NCBI RefSeq assembly: GCF_900142415.1
Contig: NZ_FRAU01000011.1
Coordinates: forward strand, 1-35,598
DNA length: 35,598 nucleotides
Reading direction: 5' to 3'
Source: Rhodothermus profundi
GTDB lineage: Bacteria > Bacteroidota > Rhodothermia > Rhodothermales > Rhodothermaceae
The notes beneath the pieces were generated by a model. That model was not told where the DNA came from. It was given only the letters and a program-made list of their open reading frames with translations, and ran no database searches. Made by a program: the position numbers and the translations under genes. Positions 11,962 to 35,598 of the stretch are shown here, in pieces; within the stretch, counting starts at the first letter, position 1, and each line of letters starts with the position of its first letter.

Positions 11962-11982
11962 GCAATCTGACGCGAGCGCATC

Positions 11983-14663: not shown

Positions 14664-14694
14664 CGAGCGGGCACAAATTGCTGGTTCAGGCTTA

Positions 14695-14730: not shown

Positions 14731-14749
14731 GTACTAACCGGGAGTCGTC

Positions 14750-16849: not shown

Positions 16850-16859
16850 ACAAAACAAT

Positions 16860-16893: not shown

Positions 16894-16914
16894 ACGGGCT
16901 GCAAGCCGAACAAC

Positions 16915-17175: not shown

Positions 17176-17209
17176 GACACCCTCACGAGTTGGCCGTTAA
17201 ACGAAAACC

Positions 17210-18365: not shown

Positions 18366-18366
18366 G

Positions 18367-19401
18367 TCAGACGGCCTTCCGTCCAAACAGGCGATGCAAG
18401 ACGGAAAGGGCGCGGTCGATGTCCTGCATGGATACGTCCCGATGCGTCACAGCTCGGATGGTGTGGGGCCCAAAGGGAACCATGAGGACGCCTTCGGCTC
18501 GGAGCTGGGCCAGGACCCCTTCGGCAGTGCCCTGCCGGACGTCGAAGCGCACGATGTTGGTCTGCACGCGCGTCAGATCGATTTCAAAGGCTGGTAGTTC
18601 GGCGATGCCTTCGGCCAGGCGACGGGCTTTGGCGTGGTCTTCGGCCAGCAGCGGCCGGTGATGTTCCAGCGCATAGAGTCCGGCAGCGGCCAGGATGCCC
18701 ACCTGGCGCATGCCGCCTCCCAGCAGTTTGCGAAAGCGGCGCGCTTCGGCTATGAGGTCCGCCGAGGCAGCTAGCACGGAGCCGACCGGTGCGCCCAGGC
18801 CTTTGGAGAGACAGACGCTTACCGTGTCAAAGGGCGTGGCCAGTTGGCGTTCGGGGACGTCCAGCGCGACGCTTGCATGCCAGAGTCGGGCGCCGTCCAG
18901 GTGGAGCGCCAGGCCATGACGACGGGCTGCTGTAGTGAGGGTGTCGATAACTGAGAGCGGGACGACCACGCCGCCAGCCCGATTGTGGGTGTTTTCCAGG
19001 CACACCAGACGGGAGCGAGGTTCCCAGTCGTGGCCGTGGCGAAGGGCTTGCGTTAGCGCTTCCGAGGAGAACCATCCGACCGCATCATCCAGCGGATGCA
19101 ACTGGACGCCGGAGATCAACGCCGGTGCACCGGACTCGTAGTTGAAGATGTGGCTTTCGCGCCCCAGCAGCACCTCATCACCGGGACGCGTCAGCACCTT
19201 GATGGCAAGCTGATTGCCCATGACTCCGGAGGGCACAAACAGGGCGGCTTCCTTCCCCAGCAACTCGGCTACGCGTTCTTCCAGCCGGCGCACCGTAGGG
19301 TCTTCGCCAAAGACATCGTCTCCCACTTCCGCTTCATACATGGCGCGGCGCATGCCGGGTGAAGGGCGGGTAACGGTGTCGCTACGCAGATCGATCCACA
19401 T
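18367..19401 (-). CDS. ltaE: Low-specificity L-threonine aldolase
   Basis: A protein of 344 residues, normal for this fold-type I PLP enzyme. It begins [20 protein letters not shown] and has [35 protein letters not shown] and the PLP-binding Lys200 in [27 protein letters not shown] is also conserved. It splits L-threonine or L-allo-threonine to glycine and acetaldehyde. The stereo-preference cannot be read from sequence. It lies downstream of greA on the same strand, but a strong hairpin in between argues for separate transcription. The Shine-Dalgarno is weak. Confidence 0.93.
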
Positions 19402-19439
19402 GGTATGATTCGCAGGCGTTCAGCATGACCGCAGCAACC

Positions 19440-19519
19440 GAACAAAATAAACAGGCCGGCCGGACGCCTTGCGGGCTTTCGCAGAGCTCGTAGCGTAGCA
19501 AGCGGCGTTCGGCCGGCCT
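19440..19519 (-). terminator. Long-stem terminator after greA
   Basis: AGGCCGGCCGGACGCC (19453-19468) pairs with GGCGTTCGGCCGGCCT (19504-19519) with one G-T pair, continuing inward through CTTGC/GCAAG. On the minus strand the stem is followed by GTTTATTTTGTT. It should end the greA transcript before ltaE. Confidence 0.8.
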
Positions 19520-19522
19520 TAA

Positions 19523-20002
19523 TTAACGGGAAATCTCCAGGATCTGCAACCTGACCTTACCCGCCGGTACCTTCACCTCGACCACGTCGCCTACCGAACG
19601 TCCCAGCAGCCCTTTTCCAATGGGACTGTTGACCGAAATCTTCCCTTCGTCCAGGTTGACTTCATGCGGAGAGACCAGCGTAAAGACCTGCTCGGCGCCT
19701 GTCTGTAAATTCTTGACGCGCACCTTAGAGAGAATATAGGCTTTGCTCGTATCGATTTTGTTTTCGTCCACGATACGGGCGTTGGCAATGGTCTGTTCAA
19801 TCTGCGCAATGCGCGCTTCCAGGCGGCCCTGCGCTTCTTTGGCGGCATCGTATTCGGCATTTTCTGACAGATCGCCGTGCGCCCGTGCTTCTGCGATGGC
19901 GCGGGCAATGCGCGCCCGCTCCTTTGTTTTGAGCTCGTGCAGTTCTTCTTTGAGCTTCTGGAGCGCCTCTTTGGTCAGGTAAACCGGCTTCGGGTTCTGC
20001 AT
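19523..20002 (-). CDS. greA: Transcription elongation factor GreA
   Basis: A protein of 159 residues, the family norm. The N-terminal coiled coil (about 10-75) includes KLKEELHELKTKERARIARA and the tip motif GDLSENAEYDAAKE, whose acidic residues reach into the polymerase secondary channel to trigger cleavage of backtracked RNA. The C-terminal FKBP-like domain has NSPIGKGLLGRSVGDVVEVK. It rescues stalled RNA polymerase. The acidic tip Asp and Glu are both present, so it should be an active GreA-type factor. It is bounded by hairpin terminators on both sides. Confidence 0.97.
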   Translation of the reverse strand: MQNPKPVYLTKEALQKLKEELHELKTKERARIARAIAEARAHGDLSENAEYDAAKEAQGRLEARIAQIEQTIANARIVDENKIDTSKAYILSKVRVKNLQTGAEQVFTLVSPHEVNLDEGKISVNSPIGKGLLGRSVGDVVEVKVPAGKVRLQILEISR

Positions 20003-21639: not shown

Positions 21640-21716
21640 GTGCGGATCTGTTACAACCTTTAATGGTCGGTGTCTTTATCAATAAGGTAATCCTGACGAT
21701 TATCTGGGGAGGACGT

Positions 21717-23711
21717 ATGCTGTCGCGCGTGTCTTTTCGTACATTATTTTTACTTTCTGGAGGGAAGCAGGAAGTGTCCGTTCCTTCCCCCTTGTATGAG
21801 GAGTTGTCTCCTATGAAAAAGGAAGCAGTATGTTCAGATGCGCAGCGGCGTGCGCAGGTGGAGCACGCCATTGTTGAGGCGGCCCGTTTGCTGGTGGGCC
21901 CGGATCCACTGGACATGCAGGCGTTGCTGCGTCTGCTGGGGGAGGCTACGGGGGCGGCTTCGGTCTACTTTGTGGGCGTGCCCCAATCGAGGGAGCAGGA
22001 AGAAGAGTATACCTATACGGTCTGGCATCGGCGCCGGCCTCGGGTGTCGAACTGGTGGCGGGAGCTGGAGACGCGTATCCGGCAGCATTTTCCCACCCCA
22101 ACAGCGCAAGATGAAGTATTGCATCTGAGTGAAAATCTGCTGGTTGTGCCTGTCCTCTCTGCGGAGGAGCGGTTTTATGGGTATCTGGGGCTGGAGTTCT
22201 CGGACGGACTGCCGGAGGCGCGTCAGGAAGAAGCCCGGCTGTTGGAGGTGCTGGGTGGGCTGCTGGCCACGTACTTCGACCGGCAGGCAACGGAGACGGC
22301 CCGTCGAGAAAGCGAGGAGCGCTGGCGTCTGCTGGTGGAGCAGTTACCGGAGCCGATTTTGCTGGCAGCTCAGGATCGGTTGGTTTATCTCAATCCGGCT
22401 GGACGAAGGCTGCTGGGGGCTGAGGAAGAGGAGGACCTGACCGGGCGTTCGCTGCTGGACTTTTTCTCGGCCGATCAATATGAGGAGATAGCCCGGCAGC
22501 TTCGGCGGTTGGAGGCGGGGGCGTCGGTGGCGCCTTTTGAGTGCACGGTTATTCGTTTTGATGGCGAAGAGCGGGTTGTGGAGCTGACGGCCGCGCCGGT
22601 GGTTTTTGAAGGCCGGCCGGTAGTGCAGATGATTCTGCGCGATCTGACGGAGCGGCGACGCGCTGAAGAGCGCTACCGCTCGTTTGTCCGTACCATTACC
22701 GAAGGTATCTGGCGGATTGAGCTGCGCCAGCCCGTGGCCGTTACGACGCTGCCCGAATTGCAGGTGGAGCATCTCTATCGGTATGGTTATCTGGCGGAAT
22801 GCAATGCGGTGATGGCACGCTGGCTGGGAGCCTCGGACCCGGAAGCGGTTGCCGGTCGGCCGTTGGAGACGCTTCGGCATTATTTTCGTCCGCGCTATCT
22901 GCGGGAGTTCGTGCAGCGAGGCTACGAGCTCCACGGCGAGGAGTACGCGTTGCCGGGTAAGCAGGGCATGCGCTACTATGTGGTTAATGCGGTAGGGACG
23001 GTAGAGCGGGACCGGCTGGTGCGCATCTGGGGCAGCGCCATTGAGGTGACCGAGCGGGTGGAACTAGAACGCCGCATGGTGCAGACCCTTGAGGCGCAGC
23101 AGCAGGCGATCGGACGCGACCTGCATGACGGGGTCGGCCAGTTGCTTACCAGCATCCGCATGCTCAGTGAGAACCTGGCGCATCGCCTGAAAGCCGAGCA
23201 GCATGAACTGACGGAGTTGGCGCAGAAGGTGGTGCGCTTTGCGCAGGAAGCGGCTGAGGGCGTGCGCGCAATCTATCGGGGGCTGACGCCGGCCCAGCTT
23301 TACACCGAGGACCTGACGCTGGCGCTAGAAGAGCTGGCCTATAATACCAATGCATTACCTGGCATTCGCTGTCGTTTTGAAACCGACGGACAGGTATGCA
23401 TTGACGATCCGGAAGTCAAGCTGCACCTGTACCGTATCGCCCAGGAAGCGGTAAACAATGCCCTGAAGCATGCGCATGCGTCGGAGATTGTGCTGACGTT
23501 GCATCGTCGGGATGAGTTTGTCGAACTATGCGTGACGGATAATGGCTGTGGCATTGATCCGCAGCGCGCACGTGCCGATTCGCTGGGGTTAAAGACAATG
23601 TACTATCGCGCCCGCACGATTGGAGGGACCCTGCATATTCACTCCCAGCCGGGCGAAGGGACAACCATTTGCTGCCGCTGGCCTGTTGGAGGGGTTCCGG
23701 GAACAGTTTAG
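21717..23711 (+). CDS. Soluble GAF-PAS-PAS sensor histidine kinase (NarX/HisKA_3 type)
   Basis: A protein of 664 residues from the ATG at 21717, which has GGGGAGG 4 nt upstream. The ATG at 21813, with GAGGAG 9 nt upstream, is an equally plausible start 32 residues later. After about 60 residues comes a GAF-like domain (to about 190), then PAS 1 (about 205-320, RWRLLVEQLPEPILLA) and PAS 2 (about 325-450). The HisKA_3 box RDLHDGVGQLLTSIR carries the phospho-acceptor His470. The ATPase domain has the N box (NNALKHAHASEI), DNGCGID and PGEGTTICC. No membrane segment is seen, so it senses a cytoplasmic cue. Two NarL-type regulator genes follow on the same strand. Confidence 0.9.
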   Translation: MLSRVSFRTLFLLSGGKQEVSVPSPLYEELSPMKKEAVCSDAQRRAQVEHAIVEAARLLVGPDPLDMQALLRLLGEATGAASVYFVGVPQSREQEEEYTYTVWHRRRPRVSNWWRELETRIRQHFPTPTAQDEVLHLSENLLVVPVLSAEERFYGYLGLEFSDGLPEARQEEARLLEVLGGLLATYFDRQATETARRESEERWRLLVEQLPEPILLAAQDRLVYLNPAGRRLLGAEEEEDLTGRSLLDFFSADQYEEIARQLRRLEAGASVAPFECTVIRFDGEERVVELTAAPVVFEGRPVVQMILRDLTERRRAEERYRSFVRTITEGIWRIELRQPVAVTTLPELQVEHLYRYGYLAECNAVMARWLGASDPEAVAGRPLETLRHYFRPRYLREFVQRGYELHGEEYALPGKQGMRYYVVNAVGTVERDRLVRIWGSAIEVTERVELERRMVQTLEAQQQAIGRDLHDGVGQLLTSIRMLSENLAHRLKAEQHELTELAQKVVRFAQEAAEGVRAIYRGLTPAQLYTEDLTLALEELAYNTNALPGIRCRFETDGQVCIDDPEVKLHLYRIAQEAVNNALKHAHASEIVLTLHRRDEFVELCVTDNGCGIDPQRARADSLGLKTMYYRARTIGGTLHIHSQPGEGTTICCRWPVGGVPGTV

Positions 23712-23794
23712 TTGAAAAATAGGGAGTGAATATTACACATTTTGTTGTATATTGCTGATTGAAGAAGCGATACAAAAACAGGGAGGTTGCGACG

Positions 23795-24505
23795 ATGAGG
23801 CACAGGGACGTCCTTCTACGGGAAGGCCCAGGCGCGCAAAGCGACCGGATTCGCGTAGTCATTGTCGACGACCATCCGGCCATTCGGGAGGCACTTTCGG
23901 ACACGATCAACAGTGCGATGGGAATGGAGGTGGTGGGGCAGGCAAGCACGGCTGCTGAAGCGTTTCGCCTTATTGAAAAGGAGCGGCCCACGGTGGCGGT
24001 GGTCGATATTTCGCTGGAAGATGCCCACGGGCTGGATCTTGTCCAGAATATCCGGGCTCAGTTTCCTGAGGTGCTGGTGGTTATCTTTTCGATGTACGAC
24101 GAGAGCGTTTATGCGGAGCGCGCGATTCGCGCCGGTGCCGCAGGCTATCTCATGAAGAGTGAACCGACGCAGAGCGTTGTGGAGGCCATCCGTGCCGTTG
24201 TGCGGGGCGAAGTGTACCTGAGCCGACGCATGGCGTCTCGCATTCTGAGCAAGGTAGCTATGGGGCGGGCGCCGGGTCCTGGCTTTGCCATCGACGAGCT
24301 GACCGACCGAGAGATGGCGGTCTTTCAGATGCTGGGCCAGGGGTATACCATTGACGAGATTACGGAACGGTTGAATTTGAGCCGGAAGACGGTTGAGACC
24401 TATCGCCGCCGTGCCAAAGAAAAACTGGGATTTGACTCGGTGGCCGAACTATTGCAGTTTGCCGTGCAGTGGACGCACGCGCAGGGACGAGGCAGTAAAC
24501 TGTGA
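23795..24505 (+). CDS. NarL/LuxR-type response regulator 1
   Basis: A protein of 236 residues. The receiver domain (about 20-135) has VDDHPAI, phospho-acceptor Asp71 (VVDISLEDAHG), a switch Ser (FSMYDE) and Lys in GYLMKSE. The LuxR-type HTH (about 165-225) includes LTDREMAVFQMLGQGYTIDE and the recognition helix RLNLSRKTVETYRRRAKEKL. The ATG at 23795 follows a strong GGGAGG site 8 nt upstream; an upstream TTG in frame is less likely. It follows the kinase gene by 83 bp and is the likely cognate regulator. It is closely related to the second regulator at 24794. Confidence 0.93.
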   Translation: MRHRDVLLREGPGAQSDRIRVVIVDDHPAIREALSDTINSAMGMEVVGQASTAAEAFRLIEKERPTVAVVDISLEDAHGLDLVQNIRAQFPEVLVVIFSMYDESVYAERAIRAGAAGYLMKSEPTQSVVEAIRAVVRGEVYLSRRMASRILSKVAMGRAPGPGFAIDELTDREMAVFQMLGQGYTIDEITERLNLSRKTVETYRRRAKEKLGFDSVAELLQFAVQWTHAQGRGSKL

Positions 24506-24793
24506 AGAAAATTTTATGCATAGGTGTTCTGGCGCAACTTACGTTGCATATTGCGCGCATCCGAAAGGGACAACCTATGCCCCGTGGTGCTTAAGTCTCC
24601 GGCGCACCATGATGCGCTTAAACTACATACCACCTTCCGCTAAAGCTTAGAGTTAGACGGCAGCGCCTGCTATTAACTTCCCCTTGTCTCACCGAGAGAC
24701 AGATCTGGGAGGCAGAGAGGCTCGGTAGAGGGTTACCCTTGTTGCAACAAGTATTGGGGTAGAGCATTTTGACCATTTGAAGCAGGCAGGCGC
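24506..24793 (+). promoter_or_regulatory. Long spacer between the two response-regulator genes
   Basis: These 288 bases hold no convincing gene. They contain several inverted motifs. GCGCAACTTACGTTGC with a further TTGCGC lies at 24532-24556, GCGCACCATGATGCGC at 24602-24617, TGTCTC/GAGACA near 24690-24706, and the perfect 14-bp palindrome CTTGTTGCAACAAG at 24738-24751, 42 bp before the start of regulator 2. The length and the palindromes suggest a separate promoter and operator for regulator 2. No canonical -35/-10 pair is clear. Confidence 0.45.
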
Positions 24794-25522
24794 ATGATGA
24801 CATTAGAAGTGTTATTCCAGCGTTCCGATCCTGAGCTAAAAGACACGCCCCGTGTTCGGCGCACGCCTATTCGCATCTTTGTGGTAGATGATCATCCGGC
24901 CATTCAGGAAGCTCTTGCCGCAACCGTTGGGAGCGAATCGGATCTGGAGCTGGTGGGAAGCGCGCGCACAGCGGCGGAAGGGATGGAGCAGATTCGCAAG
25001 CTGCGGCCGGATGTGGTGGTAGTCGATATTTCGCTCGAAGATGCCCATGGTCTGGATCTGGTGCACCAGATCCGGTCTGAACTGCCCGAGACGCAGGTCG
25101 TGGTCTTTTCCATGTACGATGAGGTAGCCTATGCGGAGCGGGCGATCCGGGCCGGCGCTATGGGCTACGTAATGAAGAGTGAGTCGACGCAAAGTGTCGT
25201 GGAGGCCATTCGCACGGTAATGCAGGGGGAAGTGTACCTGAGCCACCGAATGGCCTCGCGTATTTTGAGCAAGGTGGTGCGCGGCCAGAGCGTGCAGCCC
25301 CATGTGCTGTCGCTGGACATGCTGACGGATCGGGAGATGGCCGTTTTTCAGTTGCTCGGGCAGGGATACTCTATTGAGGAGATTATGCAGCGGTTGAATT
25401 TGAGCCGGAAGACGGTCGAGACCTATCGCCGCCGCGCCAAAGAGAAACTGGGATTTTCATCGGTCAGCGAACTCCTGCAGTTTGCGGTGCAGTGGACGTA
25501 CCGGCACACTCGTCAGGAATAG
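24794..25522 (+). CDS. NarL/LuxR-type response regulator 2 (paralog)
   Basis: A protein of 242 residues with the same architecture as regulator 1. The receiver has VDDHPAIQEAL, phospho-acceptor Asp78 in VVDISLEDAHG and GYVMKSES. The HTH has LTDREMAVFQLLGQGYSIEE and LNLSRKTVETYRRRAKEKLG. By eye roughly two thirds or more of aligned residues are identical to regulator 1, and the recognition-helix stretch is identical in protein and nearly so in DNA. A fairly recent tandem duplication is the simplest explanation. The divergent parts are the N terminus and the inter-domain linker. The Shine-Dalgarno is weak; the ATG codons at 24794 and 24797 are both possible starts. Confidence 0.93.
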   Translation: MMTLEVLFQRSDPELKDTPRVRRTPIRIFVVDDHPAIQEALAATVGSESDLELVGSARTAAEGMEQIRKLRPDVVVVDISLEDAHGLDLVHQIRSELPETQVVVFSMYDEVAYAERAIRAGAMGYVMKSESTQSVVEAIRTVMQGEVYLSHRMASRILSKVVRGQSVQPHVLSLDMLTDREMAVFQLLGQGYSIEEIMQRLNLSRKTVETYRRRAKEKLGFSSVSELLQFAVQWTYRHTRQE

Positions 25523-25721
25523 GTACGCTTTTGGCGCAAAAAAATTAGAAAACATGCGCCATTTCTACCTCTTCTAAAATCCGCTGGCGCACTTTTGTTG
25601 GGCCACTTGCCGCCGTTGGAGGCGCTGAAACCGGACGTCCGAAAAGCTTGCCAATAGGTATCTTTTCGTAGCCTGAAGGGTAAGAAGCAGGCCTTGCTTA
25701 AACGAATTGAGACAAAGGGGT
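25523..25721 (+). promoter_or_regulatory. Spacer upstream of the exopolysaccharide genes
   Basis: About 200 bases without a gene lie between regulator 2 and the first polysaccharide gene. TGGCGCA occurs at 25532-25538 and 25585-25591, and its complement TGCGCCA at 25555-25561. The first two in opposite orientation can form a 7-bp stem across an A-rich loop. This is a candidate operator or attenuator for the downstream operon. No convincing sigma-70 or sigma-54 boxes were found. Confidence 0.4.
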
Positions 25722-26930
25722 ATGCAGGTCACAGGCGTCCGGTTGAACGGCGCGCATTATGGTAAGGAAAACGGGGATGCGGGGTGCCGGGTAGCCCTGG
25801 TGCACGACTGGCTGCCCGTCTATGCCGGCGCCGAGCGGGTGCTGGAGCAGATGCTTCACCTGTTCCCCAACGCCGATCTGTTCAGTCTGATCGAATACTT
25901 ACCGCCTGATCAGCGGGCCTTTTTGCAGGGGCGGTCGGTGCAAACGTCGTTCATTCAGCGGTTGCCCTTTGCTCGACGCGCCTACCGTTACTATTTGCCC
26001 CTGGCACCGCTGGCCATTGAGCAATTCGATCTGCGGGAATATGATCTGGTCATTTCGTCCAGCTATGTGGTGGCCAAAGGCGTGCTCACCACCGCGGATC
26101 AGCTCCATATCAGCTATGTGCATAGCCCGATTCGTTATGCCTGGGACCTGTACTTCCAGTACCTGAAGCAAGGGGGACTGGAGCGCGGGGTGCGTAGCTG
26201 GCTGGCGCGGATGATTCTGCACTACTTGCGGCTCTACGATGCCACAACCGCTACCCGACCAGATGTGCTGGTGGCCAACTCGCGTCATGTGGCCCGACGC
26301 ATCTGGAAAATCTACCGGCGACGCGCCCGCGTCGTCTATCCCCCTGTTGACACGGCCTCGTTCCAGCCCGACGGAAACAAAGAGGACTACTATGTGACTG
26401 TTTCCCGGCTGGTGCCGTACAAGCGGGTGGATCTGATCGTGCAGGCGTTCGCCCGCATGCCGCAGCGCAAGCTCGTGGTCATTGGCGACGGGCCCGAGCG
26501 GGATCGGATTGCTCGGTTGGCTGCGCCAAACATCGAGTTGCTGGGCTATCAGCCGTTCGAGGTGATGCGCACCTACATGCAGCGAGCGCGTGCTTTTGTC
26601 TTTGCAGCCGAGGAAGACTTTGGCATTGTGCCGGTCGAAGCTATGGCGTGCGGTACGCCCGTGATTGCCTATGGCCGCGGCGGGGTGCGGGAGACAGTTG
26701 TTGAAGGGGAAACAGGGCTCTTCTTTTACGAACAGACCCCGGCGGCTCTGTGCGAGGCTGTTGAGCGCTTTGAACAGTTGGAGAAGACGTTGAGCGTGGA
26801 GCGCATTTGTCTGCAAGCCGAACGATTTTCGGTAGCCCGATTTCGGGAAGCGTTCGGTCGCCTGGTGGAACAGGCCTTTCGGCAGTTTTCGAAGCGTAAA
26901 CAGAAAGCCAATCCTGAAATACCGGTATGA
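25722..26930 (+). CDS. Glycosyltransferase family 4 (GT4), probable polysaccharide glycosyltransferase
   Basis: A protein of 402 residues with a two-domain GT-B fold. The N-terminal half begins with VALVHDWLPVYAGAERVLEQ, the donor-loop region of GT4 enzymes. The C-terminal half has YYVTVSRLVPYKRVDLIVQA and KLVVIGDGPERDRI. The EX7E motif spans Glu297-Glu306 (EEDFGIVPVEAMACGTPVIA) and binds the nucleotide-sugar. It transfers a sugar with retention onto a lipid-linked intermediate on the cytoplasmic face of the membrane. The relationship looks closest to WbaZ-type mannosyltransferases, without certainty. The ATG at 25722 sits directly behind AAAGGGG; a TTG 15 bp upstream is an alternative. The stop overlaps the next start (ATGA), implying translational coupling. 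Confidence 0.88.
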   Translation: MQVTGVRLNGAHYGKENGDAGCRVALVHDWLPVYAGAERVLEQMLHLFPNADLFSLIEYLPPDQRAFLQGRSVQTSFIQRLPFARRAYRYYLPLAPLAIEQFDLREYDLVISSSYVVAKGVLTTADQLHISYVHSPIRYAWDLYFQYLKQGGLERGVRSWLARMILHYLRLYDATTATRPDVLVANSRHVARRIWKIYRRRARVVYPPVDTASFQPDGNKEDYYVTVSRLVPYKRVDLIVQAFARMPQRKLVVIGDGPERDRIARLAAPNIELLGYQPFEVMRTYMQRARAFVFAAEEDFGIVPVEAMACGTPVIAYGRGGVRETVVEGETGLFFYEQTPAALCEAVERFEQLEKTLSVERICLQAERFSVARFREAFGRLVEQAFRQFSKRKQKANPEIPV

Positions 26931-28437
26931 AGGAGCTGGTACTGACAGAGACGGGGGGAGACGGGCACAAAGGCATCTCGACAGTCCGGGTAGCGCCTGT
27001 GCGCAAGGCTACCTGGTCGCGTCCGGCACGCTACCGGCGTCTCTACCCGCGGCAGTTCCTGTCGGGACTGGCCCTGCTGGGGGCAGATTTGCTGATTTTG
27101 GGAGGCGTGACCCTGTTTCTGCAGGGATGGGGAGAGAAGGTGCTGGGGGATGTGTATCCCACGTTTGCGTTGGCTACGTGGGTAACAGCTGGCTTACTGG
27201 TGCTGGGGATTGGCATGCTGGGATGCTACAGCACGGTGGTCATGCATCCGGCTGCCGAGTTGCGGCGCCTGACAATCCTTACGGGATTGGTATATGCTTT
27301 GCCCGTAGGGAGCTTGCTGATTGCCGCGCCATTGCAGGCAGGGCATGCGACCTTACTGGGAGGAAGCTGGCTGGTGGCTGTCGTTACGGTGCCCATGGGG
27401 CATCTGTTTGCCCGGTTGCTGCTGGCTCGGACGGAATGGTGGGGCGTGCCGGTGCTGGTGATGGCGACGGGCGGCGCTGGAGAACTGGCGGTGCAAACGA
27501 TGAGGCGCTGGCCTGAATTAGGATTGCGGCCTGTTGGCGTGCTGTCTGACCAGCATGTGGTTGGGGACAGGCTGGGGGACGTTCCCGTGGTGGGACGCAT
27601 CCAGGATGCACCGCGGGCGGGCTCCGCTATGGCGTGCGCCATGCTATTGTGGCGCTCTCGGGCCAGAGCCACCGGGAGGTGCTGGACCTGCTGGAACGTT
27701 ATAGCCGCTACTTCCGGCAGCTTTTTGTGCTGCCCGAAAATCCCGGCATGATTGCCTTCTGGAGCACGGCGCGCTCCTTTGAGGGATTGCTCGGCTATGG
27801 CGTGCAGCATTCCTACTGGAATCTGCGGGCGCGGGCGCTTAAGCGGGCCATGGACATCGTGGGCGCCTCCATACTGCTTTTGGCGCTGCTGCCGCTTTTT
27901 GCATTGGTGGCCCTGCTGATCAAGCTGGATTCGCCCGGACCCGTGTTTTATCGGCAGATGCGCATGGGGCGGGGCGGGCGCTGTTTCCCGCTGCTGAAGT
28001 TTCGCACCATGTATCAGGATGCAGAGCGCCGGCTGCAAGAATTGTTGCGTGAGCGCCCGGATCTGCGGGAAGAGTACGAGTTGTTCCATAAGCTGCGCAA
28101 CGATCCGCGCGTAACCCGTGTGGGGCGCTACCTGCGGCGCTTTAGCATTGATGAGCTGCCTCAGCTCTGGAACGTATTGCGTGGCGATCTCAGTCTGGTC
28201 GGGCCCAGGGCCTACATGCCCGAGGAGCGTCTTCAGATGGATGGCATGGATCGCATCATTCTCCAGAAGCGGCCCGGGGTGACCGGCCTGTGGCAAGTAT
28301 CAGGACGTAATGGGCTTACGTTTGAAGATCGCGTGCGAATGGATGTACATTATATTCATAACTGGACGCCCTGGCTGGATCTGTACATCCTGGCCCGTAC
28401 GGTGCCGGTGGTGCTGACCGGCGAAGGGGCCTGTTAA
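26927..28437 (+). pseudogene. WbaP-like undecaprenyl-phosphate sugar phosphotransferase, split by a frameshift
   Basis: Two overlapping frames together encode one familiar polytopic protein of about 503 residues. The first frame (26927-27751) carries four membrane segments (such as FLSGLALLGADLLILGG and LTILTGLVYALPVGSLLI) and a cytosolic domain ending VVGRIQDAPRA. The homologous text then continues one frame over as LRYGVRHAIVALSGQ and runs to 28437. The break lies at 27615-27631. One extra G in the GGG run at 27619-27621 would restore a continuous frame reading APRAGLRYGVRHAIVAL. A sequencing error in a G run, a real one-base deletion and phase variation are all possible. WbaP-type enzymes start polysaccharide repeat units by moving a sugar phosphate to undecaprenyl phosphate. 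Confidence 0.8.
27634..28437 (+). CDS. Catalytic half of the WbaP-like phosphoglycosyl transferase
   Basis: This is the intact downstream frame of the split gene, 267 residues if read from the GTG at 27634. It contains the whole bacterial sugar-transferase core: the re-entrant membrane helix (MDIVGASILLLALLPLFALV), SPGPVFYRQMRMGRGG, LLKFRTM, the catalytic Asp-Glu pair in FSIDELPQLWNVLRGDLSLV, GPRAYMPEE and KRPGVTGLWQVSGR. Small enzymes such as PglC consist of this core alone and are active, so the fragment might still work if translated. No good ribosome binding site precedes the GTG, so independent translation is doubtful. Confidence 0.8.
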   Translation: MRHAIVALSGQSHREVLDLLERYSRYFRQLFVLPENPGMIAFWSTARSFEGLLGYGVQHSYWNLRARALKRAMDIVGASILLLALLPLFALVALLIKLDSPGPVFYRQMRMGRGGRCFPLLKFRTMYQDAERRLQELLRERPDLREEYELFHKLRNDPRVTRVGRYLRRFSIDELPQLWNVLRGDLSLVGPRAYMPEERLQMDGMDRIILQKRPGVTGLWQVSGRNGLTFEDRVRMDVHYIHNWTPWLDLYILARTVPVVLTGEGAC

Positions 28438-28476
28438 TCAGAGCTTGTTGACCAAGGAGTGTCCCAGGGGAAAGCT

Positions 28477-30849
28477 ATGGCACACTATCGACATCACTCG
28501 CTGATCGTCGCCCGAGGCGGGCAACGAGGGGGATTGCCGCCTGCTTCCAGCGAAACGCGCGACGAAGGGCGCATCAACTTTGCTGAAATCTGGCATACGA
28601 TCCGGCGTGGTAAATGGATTATTCTGCTGACCACGCTGGTCGTGGCCGGGGTCATTGGGGCCTATACGTACACGCTACCGCCGGTGTATGAGTCCAGCGC
28701 GATTGTTTTTGTGGACACGCGCGGCAGTGGCAATGCGCCGGTCAGCGTGGCGGCGTTTACGCCTATTGAGCGCAGGGCCCTTTCCAACGAACTGGGCATC
28801 CTGAAAAACTCGGCGGAGCTGGCCACGCGGGTAGCTAAGGCTATTGTGGCCACCGCAGAGACGGCGGGCGCAAAGGAGCGGTTTCCAATTCTGGCGCCTA
28901 CCGAAGATGGTCGGGAGCCGAGCATCCGAGAGATTGCTTTTCGGCTGCGCGAGCGGGTACGCTTCCGGCCGCTTTCTGACCAGGACATGATCGTCATTAC
29001 GGCCGAGAGTACGACGCCAGAGGAGGCGGCCGTGATCGCCAACCGCTACGCGGAAGAGTATGAGAAGTATAGCCGGGAGCGCAGCCGTGAAAGTCTGGCG
29101 GCCGCGCGGGAGTTTGTCGAAAAGCAGGTTGAGCAGCGCCGTCAGGAGCTGGAAGCGCTGGAGCGCCAGTGGGAAGCGTTTGCGCGTTCGCGCCAGGTGG
29201 TGCGTCTGGGCCCCCAGGGGGAACGTCTGGTCGCTGAAGTCGCGCAGCTTGAAGCGCAGCGGGATGCTGCTCGTTTCCAGTTGGAGCAGGAAAAGTCTGC
29301 GTTGCAATTCATCGAGCAGGAACTGCAGAAGCTGGAACCTGGCCTGGTCAACGAGCTGGTCAAAAGCCGACAGGTTGCCACGCTGGAGGCGCAGATTGAT
29401 GCGCTTTCGAAAAAGATTGCTGAGCTGAAAGTGCAGGCGGAGCAGTACTACGTGTTCAATCCGAAATTGCGCGGTAATGAAGAGAAGCTGGGAGACCAGC
29501 AGTTGGTCGAGATTGTTCGGCAGATTGATCACTTTGAAAAGCAACGGGAAGCGCTGCAGGCGCAGTTGGTCCAGGAGATGCTGGGACGCAGCGGCCAGAC
29601 GCCTGCCACAGAGCCTTTGAGCTATGTGGAGCAGCTTCGCGCCCGGCGGATCGAAAAACAACTGGCGATTCAGGAGCTTGAACGCCAGATTGAAGCGTTC
29701 AACCAGGAGCTGGCCAAGTATGAAGATCAGCTTGCCCGTCTGCCGCGTCAGCAGATCGAGCTGGAGCAGCTGGAGCGGCGCCGCGCAATGGCCGAGCAGT
29801 GGTACACAACGTTTGTGCAGGAGCTCCAGCGCATCATGATTGCTGAGCAATCTGAGCTGGGCTATGTAAAGATCGTCAGCAGCGCGTTTGTCCCGACCGT
29901 GCCGGTTCGTCCAAACCGGGCGCAGAACATTGTGCTGGGGATTCTGATTGGTCTGGGACTGGGACTGGGACTGGCCTTCTTGAAACAGGCGATGCATACC
30001 CAGCTCGACGATCCCGAGCAGGTGCGGGAGCATGGCTATACGCTGCTGGGCGTGGTCCCTGCGATGGAGCCCTATATTCGGAAGCATTTTCGGGGGCGGA
30101 AAGTTGTCGAGGTCGATAATCGACCGCGCAGCACTACGCTCATTACGCTGCTAGATCCCTGGTCGCCCATTGCCGAAAACTTCCGACTGATTCGGACTAA
30201 TCTGCAACACACGCAGGCCAACAAAGGCCGTGCGACGACGTGGCTGGTAACCAGCCCGGAGATGGGCGACGGCAAGACGGTAGTAGCAGCCAATCTGGCG
30301 GTAGCGAGTGCGCACGGAGGGCAGCGTACGTTGCTGATAGATGCGGACCTGCGGCGCCCACGGGCACACGAATTGCTCGGACTGGCCGATCAGCCAGGCC
30401 TGGCTGAGCTGTTGCTGGGCAAAATGCGGCCGGATCCTGAAAGCTGGGCTACGGATATCCCCAACCTGTATTTCTTGCCGGCTGGCGTAGTTGACCAGCC
30501 ACCACCTGAGTTGCTGGGGTCGCCGCGCATGGCGCAGTTGGTGGAGTTTTTGCGCAAGCACTTTGACGTCATCGTGCTGGACTCTCCGCCGGTGCTGGCG
30601 GTTACTGACTCGGTGCTGCTGGCGCAACTGGCTGAGGCAACGCTGATGGTGGTCTCGGCAGGGCGCACTGATATTAAAGCGCTGGATATTGCGCGGCAGA
30701 CGCTCGAGTCGGTTAATGTGTCGATTGCAGGTGTGGTGTTCAACCGCTACCGGGCTGATAAACGCAAAGGTTATGCTTATGGGTATGGCTATGGCCGCCG
30801 ATACCATAAGAGCTACGGCTACTATGCCCGGGAAGCGGCGACCGGCTAA
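28477..30849 (+). CDS. Wzc-like polysaccharide copolymerase and BY-type tyrosine kinase
   Basis: A protein of 790 residues. A cytosolic start leads to TM1 (about 46-66), a Wzz domain, a long periplasmic coiled-coil section (about 200-470, rich in Gln/Glu/Arg heptads) and TM2 (about 484-502, LGILIGLGLGLGLAFL). The cytosolic kinase has Walker A SPEMGDGKTVVAANLA (Lys600), Walker A' LLIDADLRRP and Walker B VIVLDSPP. The tail holds eight Tyr between residues 766 and 783 (YAYGYGYGRRYHKSYGYY), the expected autophosphorylation cluster. It controls chain length and couples polymerisation to export. The ATG at 28477 has AGGGG 7 nt upstream. No cognate phosphatase gene is seen in the window. Confidence 0.93.
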   Translation: MAHYRHHSLIVARGGQRGGLPPASSETRDEGRINFAEIWHTIRRGKWIILLTTLVVAGVIGAYTYTLPPVYESSAIVFVDTRGSGNAPVSVAAFTPIERRALSNELGILKNSAELATRVAKAIVATAETAGAKERFPILAPTEDGREPSIREIAFRLRERVRFRPLSDQDMIVITAESTTPEEAAVIANRYAEEYEKYSRERSRESLAAAREFVEKQVEQRRQELEALERQWEAFARSRQVVRLGPQGERLVAEVAQLEAQRDAARFQLEQEKSALQFIEQELQKLEPGLVNELVKSRQVATLEAQIDALSKKIAELKVQAEQYYVFNPKLRGNEEKLGDQQLVEIVRQIDHFEKQREALQAQLVQEMLGRSGQTPATEPLSYVEQLRARRIEKQLAIQELERQIEAFNQELAKYEDQLARLPRQQIELEQLERRRAMAEQWYTTFVQELQRIMIAEQSELGYVKIVSSAFVPTVPVRPNRAQNIVLGILIGLGLGLGLAFLKQAMHTQLDDPEQVREHGYTLLGVVPAMEPYIRKHFRGRKVVEVDNRPRSTTLITLLDPWSPIAENFRLIRTNLQHTQANKGRATTWLVTSPEMGDGKTVVAANLAVASAHGGQRTLLIDADLRRPRAHELLGLADQPGLAELLLGKMRPDPESWATDIPNLYFLPAGVVDQPPPELLGSPRMAQLVEFLRKHFDVIVLDSPPVLAVTDSVLLAQLAEATLMVVSAGRTDIKALDIARQTLESVNVSIAGVVFNRYRADKRKGYAYGYGYGRRYHKSYGYYAREAATG

Positions 30850-30911
30850 AGGGGGCGCAGGAGCGGGCAGATCGTTCGGCGTTCCGTCATGCAATGAGAG
30901 CCACAGGACCG

Positions 30912-31415
30912 ATGCGCCATAAAACAGGATGGGGGTGGTTACTGCTGAGCTGGGGAATTCTTGGAGTCGCTCAGGCCCAGCCAGTGGGCGGACTGGGCGG
31001 GACTTCGTTTGAGTTTGAGTTTTACCGGCCCGGGCGGCCCACCATGATTGTGTACATCTGGGGAGCGGTGGGGCAGCCCGGGATCTGGCGGGTGGAACGG
31101 GGGGTAGATCTGATTCCGTTGTTGTCTGCCGCAAAGGTCCCGGGAGTGGGCAGCACGCCTGAAGGCGTCCGCCAGCAATATCTGGTACGCATCTTTCGCG
31201 AAGTGGAAGGGGAACGCCGGGAGATTTACCGTGAGCGGCTGGAACGGCTGGTCAGTGGCGGGGCTCGACCCTATCCGCCGCTTCAGGAAGGGGATATTCT
31301 CGTAGTTGAGATGCGCCAGCGCAGACGCTTTGGCTGGCGCACAGCTTTTGAAATCACGCGCACCATTGCCCAGATGCTGACGCTCTACCTACTGATTCGA
31401 CGAGAATTTCGATGA
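30912..31415 (+). CDS. Small SLBB-domain polysaccharide export protein
   Basis: A protein of 167 residues with an N-terminal signal peptide (WGWLLLSWGILGVAQAQ, likely cut after AQA). It carries one SLBB-like domain (about 47-75, TMIVYIWGAVGQPGIWRVER) and a C-terminal hydrophobic helix (EITRTIAQMLTLYLLIRREF). SLBB folds occur in outer-membrane export proteins such as Wza. Unlike Wza it has no lipobox Cys and no evident poly-export (PES) domain, so it may be an accessory periplasmic or inner-membrane piece. AGGA precedes the ATG at 30912; an ATG at 30894 is an alternative. Its stop overlaps the start of the ABC exporter gene (ATGA). Confidence 0.72.
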   Translation: MRHKTGWGWLLLSWGILGVAQAQPVGGLGGTSFEFEFYRPGRPTMIVYIWGAVGQPGIWRVERGVDLIPLLSAAKVPGVGSTPEGVRQQYLVRIFREVEGERREIYRERLERLVSGGARPYPPLQEGDILVVEMRQRRRFGWRTAFEITRTIAQMLTLYLLIRREFR

Positions 31416-33247
31416 TAAAGCAGGTGACGAACGGGCTGCGTCGCCATCTCTGGCGTCAGGAAGAGGGCATGCGCCTGATTTTACAGCAACTCTGGGCGCA
31501 CCGGCGGCTATTTGTTTTGACGGTAGTGCTGACCGGTCTGGGCGCTGCTTTTGAAGGCGTTGGGCTGGGGTTGCTGGTGCCTTTTCTGGATAGTCTGATG
31601 AATCCGGAGGCCAAGGGATTCGCTACGGGATGGGCCTGGATTGATCAGCATCTGCTGCGCGTCGATGCGCCGGTCATGACGCGCCTGTACTGGTTCTCCG
31701 GATTGATTCTGCTGGCCATTCTGCTGCGGGGGGGATTGGGCTATGCGGCCCAGCAGTTTAGCATCCGCCTGCAGGAGGCCATTTTGCACCGGCTGCGTTG
31801 CCAGATTGTTGACCAGTTGCAGGCTGTTTCGCTGAAGTTCTATGCGCATCGGCGGGCCGGTGATCTGCTGAATGTGCTTACGGCCGAGATCCAGCGGTTG
31901 CGCTTTCTGTTTGGCACCTCTAGCGCGATCCTGATCAACGGATTCCTGCTCGTGGTGTACGGCACGGCGATCTTTGCGCTTTCGTGGTCGCTGGCCCTGG
32001 TGGCGATCGGGATGACGGCCGGGTTATTTGTGGTCGTGCGCGCGTTGGTTGAGCGTTTGAAACGGGAAGGAAACGCGATTACGCGCACTAATAGCTGGAT
32101 TGCCTCGCGGGCGCAGGAGCTCATTGCCGGTATCCGCACAGTGCTGACGCACGGCGCGCAGGCGTTCGAATCGGCGCGCTTCAGGCGGGTCAGTCAGGAA
32201 GCTGCCGATGTTGTCGTACAGATCAGTCGCAAGCAGGCGCTTATTGGACCCCTTTCGCAGGCGGTTGCTTCGATTGCGCTCATCGGGTTGATCATTGTGG
32301 CCGTGCAATATTTCGTGCTGCCAGGTCGCATCAGCATGGCCGTGCTCATTACGTTTCTGTTTGCCTTTTTCCGCATGCTCCCCCTTGTTCAGAACATCAA
32401 CAACCTGCGCGCTATGTGGGCCAAGCAGCGGGGGGCTGTGCAGGCTGTCGCTGATATTCTGCGGCGGGACGATAAGCCGTATCTGCCCGATGGAACCATC
32501 CCGTTTGAGGGGCTGCGCGAGGCCATTGAGTTGCGCCACGTCAGCTTTGGGTATGAACCGGGCCAGCGGGTGCTGCACGACATCAATCTGACCATTCGCA
32601 GAGGACAGACCGTGGCATTTGTGGGGGCTTCGGGCGCGGGCAAGAGCACGCTGGCTGATCTGATCGTACGACTCTACGACCCGGACGAAGGACAGATTCT
32701 CTATGATGGGGTTGACCTGCGCCAGTACCGGATCGACACCATTCGACGCCGGGTAGCGGTGGTCAGCCAGGACACTTTCCTGTTTCACGACACGATCCGG
32801 GCCAACATTGCCTATGGGTTAGAGGATGTATCTGAGGAGCGCATTCGGTGGGCGGCGGCTCAGGCCAATGCATTGGAGTTCATTGAACAGTTGCCAGAAG
32901 GATTCGATACGGTAGTGGGGGATCGGGGGACCAGGCTATCCGGGGGGCAGCGTCAGCGGATCGCGATTGCGCGGGCATTGTTGCGCGACCCGGATATTCT
33001 GGTGCTTGATGAGGCCACCAGCGCGCTGGACAGTGTGTCGGAGCGGCTGGTGCAGGAGGCGCTTGAGCGTTTGATGGCGGGGCGTACGGTTATTGTTATT
33101 GCCCACCGGCTTTCAACCATTGAAAATGTGGATCTTGTGGTTGTCTTGGAAGCTGGCCGTATTGTAGAGCAGGGAACGTATGACGAACTGATTGAGCGCA
33201 AAGGGTATTTGTGGACTTATTATCGATTGCAACATCAGCTTGTTTGA
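31412..33247 (+). CDS. ABC exporter, fused membrane and ATPase domains (probable lipid-linked glycan flippase)
   Basis: A protein of 611 residues. Six membrane spans lie within about 35-330 (such as LFVLTVVLTGLGAAFEGVGL and ILINGFLLVVYGTAIFALSW), followed by an ATPase domain. The ATPase has Walker A GASGAGKST (Lys411), the Q loop (VVSQDTFLF), signature LSGGQRQRIAIARALL (from about 509), Walker B ILVLDEATSALDS and a switch His (IAHRLST). The length and layout match MsbA/PglK-type homodimeric exporters. Being inside a polysaccharide operon next to the priming transferase, it probably flips a lipid-linked sugar; another cargo cannot be excluded. It is translationally coupled to the SLBB gene. 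Confidence 0.92.
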   Translation: MIKQVTNGLRRHLWRQEEGMRLILQQLWAHRRLFVLTVVLTGLGAAFEGVGLGLLVPFLDSLMNPEAKGFATGWAWIDQHLLRVDAPVMTRLYWFSGLILLAILLRGGLGYAAQQFSIRLQEAILHRLRCQIVDQLQAVSLKFYAHRRAGDLLNVLTAEIQRLRFLFGTSSAILINGFLLVVYGTAIFALSWSLALVAIGMTAGLFVVVRALVERLKREGNAITRTNSWIASRAQELIAGIRTVLTHGAQAFESARFRRVSQEAADVVVQISRKQALIGPLSQAVASIALIGLIIVAVQYFVLPGRISMAVLITFLFAFFRMLPLVQNINNLRAMWAKQRGAVQAVADILRRDDKPYLPDGTIPFEGLREAIELRHVSFGYEPGQRVLHDINLTIRRGQTVAFVGASGAGKSTLADLIVRLYDPDEGQILYDGVDLRQYRIDTIRRRVAVVSQDTFLFHDTIRANIAYGLEDVSEERIRWAAAQANALEFIEQLPEGFDTVVGDRGTRLSGGQRQRIAIARALLRDPDILVLDEATSALDSVSERLVQEALERLMAGRTVIVIAHRLSTIENVDLVVVLEAGRIVEQGTYDELIERKGYLWTYYRLQHQLV

Positions 33248-33268: not shown

Positions 33269-34120
33269 ATGAACATCCAGGCTCCGAAGGGTTCATTTAG
33301 TTATCGTGCAGTGCGGCGCTTACTGGGAGAATTGGGAATGATAAGAGTATGGGAGCAACTTTCGTCTTTTTATTTGTGGAATGCATTTCCTCTCGATGGA
33401 AAAGAAAATCGTTTGTTTCAGGTGGTAGGAGTGCCTAGATCTGGGACAACATTATTGTGTTCCATGTTGAATTCGCATTCCAAAATTATCTGTTTGAGTG
33501 AACCTTACCATCAATGGAAGTATGATGGTTTTGTTTATACAGATGAAATTTGCGAATTAGTTCATTCTAATACATGGAAAAGACATCCAGCAATTTTGCT
33601 AAAATTTCTTTTGAGAAATGTTAATGATAAACTGATAGGCTTTAAGGAAATATATTATAGTAAATATAATGGGCATTACAGTAATCATTTCTTCTTCAAA
33701 AGAAACTATCAAAAAGGTGTAGTGACTATAGCGATTATTAGAGATCCCAGAGAAGTCTGGAAATCATTAGTTCTTAAGCACCCTGAAAAAAGAGGAAGAG
33801 TTACTAGAAGATTTGTAGAATCATGGAATGATTTGGTTTGCTGGATACTTGAAAATAACATTTTTTGGGTAAGGTATGAAGATCTGGTTGACAATCCTGA
33901 GAATGAATTGTGTAAAGTGTGTGATTTTCTGGGCGTTGATTTCGAGGAAGATATGTTTATCCTTAAAGAAAGAAAAGCACGAGGTGACTTAAATGCATTA
34001 AAAGGAGGGAATATTATTGAAGGCAGAAATAAGGAATATAAAAAGGTATTATCTTTGCGCGAGATTAATTATATAGAGTTTAAGTGTGATCGTTTTATGA
34101 AGCTTACTGGGTACAAATAG
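33269..34120 (+). CDS. Sulfotransferase family protein 1
   Basis: A protein of 283 residues. The PAPS-binding 5' loop is VVGVPRSGTTLLCSML (56-61 PRSGTT) and the 3'-phosphate motif is IIRDPREVWKSLV (Arg158 to Ser166), both complete. Further typical parts are FWVRYEDLVDNPENELCKVC and FLGVDFEED. Such enzymes move sulfate from PAPS to a hydroxyl or amine; in this locus a sugar is the obvious acceptor. Base composition is unlike the neighbours: two sampled lines inside the gene gave 13/60 and 21/60 G+C, against 40/60 in the ABC gene. Lys and Asn are abundant. Recent transfer is likely. It starts 21 bp after the ABC gene. Confidence 0.88.
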   Translation: MNIQAPKGSFSYRAVRRLLGELGMIRVWEQLSSFYLWNAFPLDGKENRLFQVVGVPRSGTTLLCSMLNSHSKIICLSEPYHQWKYDGFVYTDEICELVHSNTWKRHPAILLKFLLRNVNDKLIGFKEIYYSKYNGHYSNHFFFKRNYQKGVVTIAIIRDPREVWKSLVLKHPEKRGRVTRRFVESWNDLVCWILENNIFWVRYEDLVDNPENELCKVCDFLGVDFEEDMFILKERKARGDLNALKGGNIIEGRNKEYKKVLSLREINYIEFKCDRFMKLTGYK

Positions 34121-34240
34121 ATATGTAATCGTGTAGAAGTTTATATATTAGGTTGTGCTTGTTTGATAAGGTTGTGAGTTAGTTTGTGTATAACTAGTAT
34201 TGAGAAGCAGAAAGGTAACTGTGCTATTGAGGCCGAGCTA
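33355..34240. other. AT-rich island covering sulfotransferase 1 and its downstream spacer
   Basis: Composition changes sharply about 90 bases into sulfotransferase gene 1 and recovers near 34220-34240. The spacer 34121-34301 is itself AT-rich in its first 100 bases and holds no gene. No transposase, tRNA, direct repeat or terminal inverted repeat was seen at either edge. The island looks like DNA gained from an AT-rich donor rather than a complete mobile element. The boundaries are estimates by eye. Confidence 0.7.
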
Positions 34241-34301
34241 ATTGTCTGGCGTGGATGTTTCTCGGATTATTATTGCATGTAAACTGGAAGATAGAGTGAG
34301 C

Positions 34302-35186
34302 ATGCGAACGAAAATTCAGGCTATCTTCTTTCTGCGACATAAGTGTGCCTCCATGTGGCTCAGCGCGATTGCAGAACGCGCCTGTGCTATGTTGGGGATA
34401 CCTTATGTTTATTTTTATAAAAGCACACGATGGGGGTGGAATTTTGCCGACTTTTACCAGAAAACAGATCATCCTGTCCTTGGTTGTGCCAATCCAGAGA
34501 TTGACGAAGTACGACAACTTCAGAACTTCCGAGGGGTGCATGTAGTGCGCGATCCGCGCGATCTTATTGTATCGGCTTATTTTTCGCATCGTTACAGCCA
34601 CTGGTTCAAGCCTGGAACGGAAGAATATGCCCATCAAGAACGCCTCCGTCGCGTACCCAAGGAAGAGGGGATACGGTTAGAGATTGAATTCAGCGAGCGA
34701 TATCTCCGGCCTATTGCCGACTGGGACTTCTCGATGCCTCATGTGCTGGAGCTGAAGTTCGAAGAAGTAACGGCCCGGCCTTACGAGTCGATATTGCAGA
34801 TTTTTGCCTTTCTGGGGTTGCTGGATGAAGATGATTGGACCTGGTGGCGCCAACTTATTGATACGCCTCGCTTTGTGTGGAACAGAGTGGCGCGGCGGTG
34901 GGGAGGATGGGGACGCTGGCCGCGCCGCACGATTCCAGCCGAAAAACTGCTCGGGATTGTCTACGAGTTGCAATTTGAGCGTCTGGCCCGTCGCTCCAGA
35001 GGGCAGGAAGATCCAAAAAGTCATTATCGGAAAGGGCAGCCGGGTGACTGGCGAAACCACTTTACTGAAGAACATGTGGCGCTCTTCAAGGAGCGGTATC
35101 CGGGCCTGTTGGTAAAGCTGGGCTATGAGCCAGATGACAACTGGAGTCTTACAGCGCGAGCTGTTCCCAGCGAATGTACGGGGTGA
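34302..35186 (+). CDS. Sulfotransferase family protein 2
   Basis: A protein of 294 residues. The N-terminal loop FFLRHKCASMWLSAIAE is a variant of the HHKCASTW-type PAPS loop, and VVRDPRDLIVSAYFSHR is the 3'-phosphate motif. Further along are LELKFEEVTARPYESILQI and the C-terminal YRKGQPGDWRNHFTEEHV, the classic KG-G-W-sulfotransferase end motif. The product should be a cytosolic PAPS-dependent sulfotransferase. The ATG at 34302 is chosen because the family starts there; GTG at 34296 and TTG at 34242 are in frame upstream. G+C is intermediate (27/60 in one sampled line). It is close to the next gene in sequence and probably a tandem duplicate. Confidence 0.88.
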   Translation: MRTKIQAIFFLRHKCASMWLSAIAERACAMLGIPYVYFYKSTRWGWNFADFYQKTDHPVLGCANPEIDEVRQLQNFRGVHVVRDPRDLIVSAYFSHRYSHWFKPGTEEYAHQERLRRVPKEEGIRLEIEFSERYLRPIADWDFSMPHVLELKFEEVTARPYESILQIFAFLGLLDEDDWTWWRQLIDTPRFVWNRVARRWGGWGRWPRRTIPAEKLLGIVYELQFERLARRSRGQEDPKSHYRKGQPGDWRNHFTEEHVALFKERYPGLLVKLGYEPDDNWSLTARAVPSECTG

Positions 35187-35191
35187 CACGT

Positions 35192-35598
35192 ATGCTGTAC
35201 GTTTACTTTGGCCATCATAAGTGTGCGTCCACCTGGATTCATGGAATTATTGGCCAGGTATGCCGGGAGGCCGGATTGCGCAAGCGGCTGGTGGTTGATC
35301 CGCTTACGCCGCATGCGCACGGGCCGTTGACCGACTACCTGCGCTGGGACATCCGGCGTGAGGAGCTGGGGACTTACCTGACGCGCGAGGGGGTTGATTT
35401 TGCCTGCTGCATTACGGCCGACCAGGCTCATGTGGACGGGTTGCAGGGTGTTTCGTTTCGGGGATTTCATGTGATTCGGGATCCGCGGGACATCATTGTG
35501 TCGGCGTATTTTTCGCATCGCAACAGTCATCCGACGGAGGGGTTGCCGCACCTGGCTGAGCATCGACGGCGGTTGCAGCAGGTGTCGAAGGAGGAAGG
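35192..35598 (+). CDS. Sulfotransferase family protein 3 (partial, runs off the window)
   Basis: The first 135 residues are visible. The start MLYVYFGHHKCASTWIHGII contains the canonical HHKCASTW PAPS loop, and FHVIRDPRDIIVSAYFSHRN is the 3'-phosphate motif. The latter matches sulfotransferase 2 in all but a few residues and closely in DNA, so the two are tandem paralogs. The start lies 5 bp after the preceding stop, so the genes are co-translated. The C-terminal half and whatever follows are outside the window. Confidence 0.87.
   Translation, partial: MLYVYFGHHKCASTWIHGIIGQVCREAGLRKRLVVDPLTPHAHGPLTDYLRWDIRREELGTYLTREGVDFACCITADQAHVDGLQGVSFRGFHVIRDPRDIIVSAYFSHRNSHPTEGLPHLAEHRRRLQQVSKEE

Follow-up and report, generated by a model that had tools for sequence, protein, structure and literature searches.

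Papers from 2021 and 2026 still treat sulfated polysaccharides in bacteria as an essentially cyanobacterial trait (PMC8205485, PMC13390465), even though marine gammaproteobacterial examples exist; our comparisons with published systems draw on parts of the cited papers. The xss cluster of Synechocystis sp. PCC 6803, which makes the sulfated exopolysaccharide (EPS) synechan, is a Wzx/Wzy/PCP-type cluster with eight glycosyltransferases and two sulfotransferases (STs) of different subfamilies; when xssA was deleted, blooms no longer formed and EPS accumulation was suppressed, whereas loss of xssE had no substantial effect on either, and the authors were aware in 2021 of no other exopolysaccharide cluster from bacteria that contained STs (PMC8205485). 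The synechan pathway has been transferred to another cyanobacterium (PMC13125312), and further cases are on record: three ST genes in the capsule locus of Vibrio sp. KMM 8419 (PMC11641403), two in the wps-1 cluster of Actinoplanes missouriensis (PMC13390465), ST genes in Cobetia (PMC11766843), and three putative glycosaminoglycan STs in Pontiella, one of them within a glycan cluster (PMC7356697). Here we describe a locus of Rhodothermus profundi at the end of a 35,598-bp stretch of DNA (the window), where three adjacent genes, ST1, ST2, and ST3 in gene order, are real STs dependent on 3'-phosphoadenosine 5'-phosphosulfate (PAPS) within a polysaccharide cluster.

As in xss, where two-component regulators adjoin the cluster, genes for a PAS histidine kinase and two similar LuxR-type response regulators (21663-25522, identified by Pfam) lie upstream of the Rhodothermus cluster, which from their position they may regulate. 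The differences are that here at least four STs stand in tandem and that a HepA-family ATP-binding cassette (ABC) exporter follows the co-polymerase. The marine Vibrio locus is also similar in having three STs in a polysaccharide locus, PAPS synthesis, ABC export, and variation between strains of a single species, but its STs occupy three separate regions, its PAPS genes lie in the cluster, and its structure is solved, whereas the Rhodothermus STs are adjacent and partly paralogous, with the PAPS gene on another contig (C1). The wps-1 cluster is comparable in being of the Wzx/Wzy type, in having a pair of STs that belong to different families, and in the sulfated polysaccharide proposed as its product; it belongs to another phylum, and the parts of that paper used here mention no tandem paralogues. 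An earlier note on this DNA, which took multiple adjacent STs to suggest sulfation at different positions of one glycan, had called this uncommon in bacterial capsules, an overstatement in view of the published clusters of two or three STs in Synechocystis, Vibrio, and Actinoplanes. Multi-ST glycan clusters are a known kind, and the unusual part of this one is a tandem array that varies between species and is mosaic in relatives.

Within the genus, the exopolysaccharide of R. marinus DSM 16675, composed of xylose, mannose, and arabinose, shows a Fourier-transform infrared (FT-IR) band at 1219 cm-1 that was assigned to sulfate esters in the part of the report consulted (PMC9590192). A literature search on Rhodothermus and sulfotransferases returned no title concerning such genes, the main text of PMC6801211, a paper that mentions genetic engineering of the genus, has no occurrence of 'sulfat', and in searches for variable or recombining ST clusters none of the listed titles and abstract openings described such an array.

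Identity of the three sulfotransferases

The window is the first part (C11:1-35598) of an 88,346-bp contig of the R. profundi genome (G000); the other genomes of the genus are labeled G001 to G006, G004 being R. marinus DSM 4252 and G006 a Rhodothermus sp. metagenome-assembled genome (MAG). The identity of G004 follows from its second contig (125,133 bp), whose first 5 kb matches NC_013502.1 at 100% identity. All window genes given here lie on the forward strand. ST1 (33269-34120, 283 amino acids [aa]) matches Pfam Sulfotransfer_3 (E 4e-16) and Sulfotransfer_1 (E 5e-10), and ST2 (34302-35186, 294 aa) matches Sulfotransfer_1 (E 6e-12), both above the Pfam cut-offs for PAPS-dependent STs. Only the 5' part of ST3 (35192-35598, 135 readable codons) lies in the window, and a Pfam scan of this fragment alone found no match; all 135 residues align with full-length genes in G002 (91% identity) and G001 (83%), and because the latter homologue scores 42 bits on Sulfotransfer_1 (cut-off 22), we call ST3 a sulfotransferase, the Pfam score for this type coming from the G001 homologue and not from the G002 one. 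An NCBIfam scan gave none of these genes an ST name; NoeE, its sole match for ST1, scored 28 bits where the cut-off is 500 and was rejected.

Both PAPS-binding motifs (5'-PSB and 3'-PB) can be read directly in all three genes. ST1 has VPRSGTT and IRDPREVWKS (5'-PSB RSGTT at 33437-33451, 3'-PB R..S at 33740-33766); ST2 has RHKCASMW and VRDPRDLIVS, plus RKGQPGDWRNHFT at 35028-35066; and ST3, of the GHHKCASTW type, has HHKCASTW (35213-35236) and IRDPRDIIVS (35477-35503). Residues K14, R83, and S91 of ST2 are invariant across 11 aligned sequences. The AlphaFold2 model of ST2, the one protein of the three covered by this test, has a mean predicted local distance difference test (pLDDT) score of 79 and has a sulfotransferase fold: Foldseek matched it to STs in the PDB (E down to 2e-6, template-modeling [TM] scores 0.35-0.48), and in a VIA comparison with PAPS sulfotransferases, residues 3-286 gave Z 12.6 and a root mean square deviation of 4.2 over 214 aligned positions. 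In this predicted fold and in the alignment of its R..S and RKGxxGDW motifs, ST2 resembles the cytosolic sulfotransferases (SULTs) and the glycopeptide sulfotransferases Teg12/StaL; it differs in sequence (11-22% identity among the matches listed) and in its glycan cluster context. A model of ST1 built from a 4-row alignment was discarded (pLDDT 46).

ST1 begins 21 bp after the stop codon of an exporter gene (31412-33247) that scores 863.5 bits on NCBIfam NF045513, above the equivalog cut-off of 725, and is thereby assigned to the HepA family of polysaccharide/oligosaccharide ABC exporters. The ST2 ATG follows ST1 by 181 bp, with an alternative TTG start at 34242 in a frame that is open, and the ST3 ATG follows ST2 by 5 bp, with an earlier in-frame ATG at 35174 that would overlap ST2. 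Scans between the genes for promoters and terminators gave about what chance predicts (5 promoter-like sites versus 4.4 expected; 3 terminator-like sites versus 4.6).

Directly past the window edge, a run of 1,210 Ns (C11:35599-36808) cuts ST3. It is followed by the final 59 codons of a fourth ST (EDVRSHYRKGQPGDWRNHF...) and by GT2 and GT4 glycosyltransferase genes; the N run, if its length is true, could accommodate the missing part of ST3 as well as the whole of ST4. The earlier note had thus read the locus well in placing the three open reading frames, in naming them STs with both PAPS motifs kept, in setting them close behind export genes, and in expecting the row to continue beyond position 35598, where it proposed to look for more STs and glycosyltransferases. 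Its probable marine thermophile agrees with the genus, Rhodothermus.

A variable and mosaic array

The array is present in five of the seven Rhodothermus genomes and comprises two to five STs between conserved neighbors. R. profundi has HepA-ST1-ST2-ST3, the N run, the ST4 tail, and GT2; G001 has HepA-ST1-ST2, another ST, an ST3-type gene, and GT4; G002, on one contig, has HepA, another ST (41% GC), a GT61 gene, ST2, and three ST3-type copies; G004 has HepA-ST1, one ST3-type gene, and GT4; and G006 has HepA-ST1-ST2-ST3 up to a contig end, with a second contig carrying an ST3-type gene and GT2. The place of the array cannot be seen in G003 because its contig ends inside the exporter, and no PF00685 match occurs elsewhere in that genome; in G005 the best HepA match is 34%, and one PF00685 match lies on a small contig. 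ST2 is 84% identical to its homologue in G006, and the five genes immediately upstream of the array are 72-96% identical to those of R. profundi where found (exporter 77-90%). The fetched G001 region has no orthologue of the GT4 or priming transferase genes upstream, and the G002 region has no ST1 homologue. Since the GT61 gene (L036:9276-10382) sits within the G002 array, the variable segment can carry sugar-adding genes too. Judged by these gene orders and alignments, the array expands, contracts, and recombines from species to species while its neighbors stay.

The evidence for mosaic copies comes from the relatives G002 and R. marinus DSM 4252, ST3 and ST4 being incomplete in R. profundi. 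Compared in 60-base windows, copies c and d of G002 go from 40-72% identity in the first 240 aligned bases through 53-93% in the following 240 to 98-100% between columns 480 and 840, and they share an exact repeat of 332 bp (C1:1362638-1362969 and 1363550-1363881). Identity at fourfold sites rises in parallel, from 20 of 39 in codon columns 0-150 to 42 of 43 in columns 150-250 (Fisher p 6e-7). Other exact stretches join copies b and c (77 bp), b and d (56 bp), and a and d (44 bp). In R. marinus DSM 4252, the lone ST3-type copy carries a 125-base run identical to G002 copy b and is 94-98% identical to copy d over the last 240 aligned bases (35-43% in most of the first part), a pattern that would be expected from an array collapsed by crossover. 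The R. profundi and G006 assemblies both break within the array, which fits such repeats, although in R. profundi the N run could instead mark a withheld stretch of sequence.

The pairwise homoplasy index (PHI), computed with an in-house script, gave a strong signal for six ST3-type genes, with none of 2,000 permutations reaching the observed value, also after dropping any one gene. No such signal came from the controls Wzc (1,030 of 2,000), ST1 (1,595 of 2,000), and the ST2 type (fraction 0.70), but for the control HepA the count was 0 of 2,000 as well. Because the index is therefore not specific to the array, we dropped it as the sole recombination argument, and we argue for mosaicism from the exact repeats that otherwise divergent paralogues share.

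ST1 differs in composition from its surroundings: its GC content is 35%, against 56-64% over most of the remaining window. Homologues 58-63% identical to it hold the same place in G001, G004, and G006, and the ST1 genes of all four genomes are AT rich (33-37% GC). G004 has a second ST1-like gene at C1:2493346. In a sample of 394 genomes from the phylum, the ST1 profile matched just three at E <= 1e-15, each of them a Rhodothermus; G006, which carries ST1 and is outside those three, was presumably not drawn in the sample.

Polysaccharide genes and sulfate activation

Upstream of the exporter, the cluster consists of a GT4 glycosyltransferase (25707-26930; Pfam Glycos_transf_1, E 4e-31), a priming polyprenyl glycosyl-phosphotransferase (26927-28437), a Wzc-like polysaccharide co-polymerase/tyrosine-kinase-type ATPase (28459-30849; Pfam GNVR, Wzz, CbiA, and AAA_31), and a small export-like protein (30894-31415). 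The last resembles Wza/EpsE weakly (TIGR03028 EpsE, 15.4 bits, far under the cut-off) and had no match in a Pfam scan; homologues are present in the G001, G002, G003, G004, and G006 regions. The priming transferase is read in two overlapping frames that meet near 27616-27622, unlike the single 503-aa frame of G002, G003, G004, and G006, and this difference is either real or due to a sequencing error; the entire Bac_transf domain (E 2e-65) is contained in the second part.

As would be expected of an xss-like sulfated exopolysaccharide cluster, the STs thus stand amid a priming transferase (two frames here), glycosyltransferases, a co-polymerase, and an exporter, and sulfate activation is encoded as well. 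PAPS can be made, since contig C1 encodes a 578-aa fused ATP sulfurylase-adenylylsulfate (APS) kinase, which adjoins a permease matching CitMHS and Na_sulph_symp.

Searches of the genome with the PF00685 and PF13469 profiles, together with inspection of the contig beyond the window, brought up more STs. Two lie on C11, 29-35 kb past the edge: one at 64548-65501 (L004:11549-12502; 34% GC; PF13469 at 21.8 bits, under the cut-off of 27) and one at 70177-71109 (PF13469 at 79 bits), whose best solved relatives are heparan-sulfate 3-O-sulfotransferases (E 1e-18). A seventh, of 287 aa, lies on C1 amid other glycan-type genes. Further divergent STs may exist, because the profile searches missed the one at 64548. 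Sulfotransfer_2 (PF03567) had no match in R. profundi and one each in G001, G002, and G003.

Other genes of the contig include C11:63127-64572 (481 aa), which was considered for the role of Wzy polymerase and has homologues of 80-82% identity in G001, G002, and G004 and no Pfam or NCBIfam family match, and C11:39173-40168 (L003:6174-7169), which encodes a 331-aa protein of 37% GC with a weak RimK/ATP-grasp match (16.3 bits, cut-off 21) and no match in the five fetched genus regions, two of them short. An MBOAT acyltransferase gene downstream, on the other strand, suggests O-acylation as well.

Occurrence outside the genus

Of the 244 genomes of the class, 32 matched an ST2/ST3 family profile at E <= 1e-10, and among these only G000, G001, G002, and G006 have at least two family genes within 5 kb; G097 has two neighboring stretches that resemble a single gene, and in G151 two genes lie 6 kb apart. 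The matching genomes from beyond Rhodothermus number 27, and 18 of them contributed one region of 5.7-20 kb each; in the nine omitted, the matches are mostly weak or partial. A glycosyltransferase match was found in 14 of these 18 regions and a strong HepA match (E < 1e-100) in 8; as controls, window positions 1-20000 and C11:73000-88346 gave no match, and C1:735000-739500 gave one GT4 match. The class thus includes other genera in which the family lies close to polysaccharide genes. Another ST type shares the region with the ST2 homologue in six cases (L079, L087, L088, L089, L090, and L093), mostly with glycosyltransferase matches, and weaker ST1-like matches occur in two (L087 and L090).

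Discussion

We consider it quite probable that the STs of the array attach sulfate esters to the polysaccharide that the surrounding cluster makes and exports; the most likely product is a surface polysaccharide that carries sulfate. The sulfated exopolysaccharide proposed in the earlier note gains from the polysaccharide context, the PAPS supply, the FT-IR signal in R. marinus, and the additional STs, and it loses the supposed rarity of such clusters. Under this model, the fused ATP sulfurylase-APS kinase would activate sulfate to PAPS, which each ST would hold through its 5' loop motif and its 3'-phosphate R..S motif, with a C-terminal RKGxxGDW motif of the ST2/ST3 type also contacting it. 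At least four tandem STs would then sulfate sugar hydroxyls, perhaps at different positions, in the cytoplasm before export, on the polysaccharide of the priming transferase, GT4 and GT2 glycosyltransferases, Wzc-like co-polymerase, and HepA-type ABC exporter.

Several observations weigh against this interpretation. The FT-IR signal comes from another strain, and a single band is weak proof; 4 of the 18 loci outside the genus lack a glycosyltransferase match; and if the frame change in the priming transferase is no sequencing error, the pathway may be impaired. The ST2 model is poor at residues 190-203 and 226-245, and its TM scores are just 0.35-0.48. Among solved structures, the ST2/ST3 family is related to cytosolic SULTs, whose acceptors are small molecules, and ST1 to CurM, tyrosylprotein sulfotransferases, and StaL; only the relatives of the distant ST at 70177 indicate a glycan acceptor. 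Such relatives also bear on the idea that the enzymes modify lipids or small molecules and came to lie in the cluster by chance or horizontal transfer. The nearest solved structures to ST2 are small-molecule SULTs, and ST1 is AT rich in four genomes, with profile matches at E <= 1e-15 in the phylum sample confined to this genus. In contrast, the STs adjoin exporter and glycosyltransferase genes in five genomes of the genus, glycosyltransferase matches accompany most of the loci outside it, and at least three ST sequence groups are assembled in one glycan cluster, all of which makes this explanation very improbable.

A closer competitor is that the STs act on another surface glycan of the same cluster, such as a lipopolysaccharide O-chain or an S-layer or protein glycan, rather than on a secreted exopolysaccharide. 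MsbA/PglK-type exporters flip lipid-linked glycans, and the exporter here scores 451.6 bits on the model for the lipid A exporter MsbA, under that model's cut-off of 602. A parallel exists in Salinibacter ruber, a member of the same order as Rhodothermus. There, in the part of the report used here, ST genes are placed in a variable O-antigen cluster (PMC6060240). Against this, the Wzc-like co-polymerase and the HepA assignment point to a polymerized exopolysaccharide or capsule, and no O-antigen ligase was recognized among the scanned proteins, which included the family-less product of 63127-64572 and were not supplemented by a genome-wide ligase search. We regard action on another glycan as unlikely and favor sulfation of the exported polysaccharide.

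Because the array grows, shrinks, and recombines between species, the sulfation pattern of that polysaccharide probably differs between species. A more tentative proposal, which we think rather less likely than its opposite, is that the tandem array is a recombination-driven diversity locus that rewrites surface-polysaccharide sulfation while leaving the backbone untouched, for example, under phage predation; divergent N-terminal halves, possibly choosing the acceptor, would be combined with shared PAPS-binding tails exchanged by gene conversion and unequal crossover.

Rhodothermus is thermophilic and culturable, with two to five neighboring STs and an FT-IR sulfate signal on record, and is a likely source of heat-stable polysaccharide sulfotransferases. 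The variants of the array offer a natural set for mapping the part of the enzyme that chooses the acceptor. If the array does prove to be a generator of diversity, the sulfate pattern would have to be counted, alongside the make-up of the sugars, among the fast-evolving traits of the bacterial surface.

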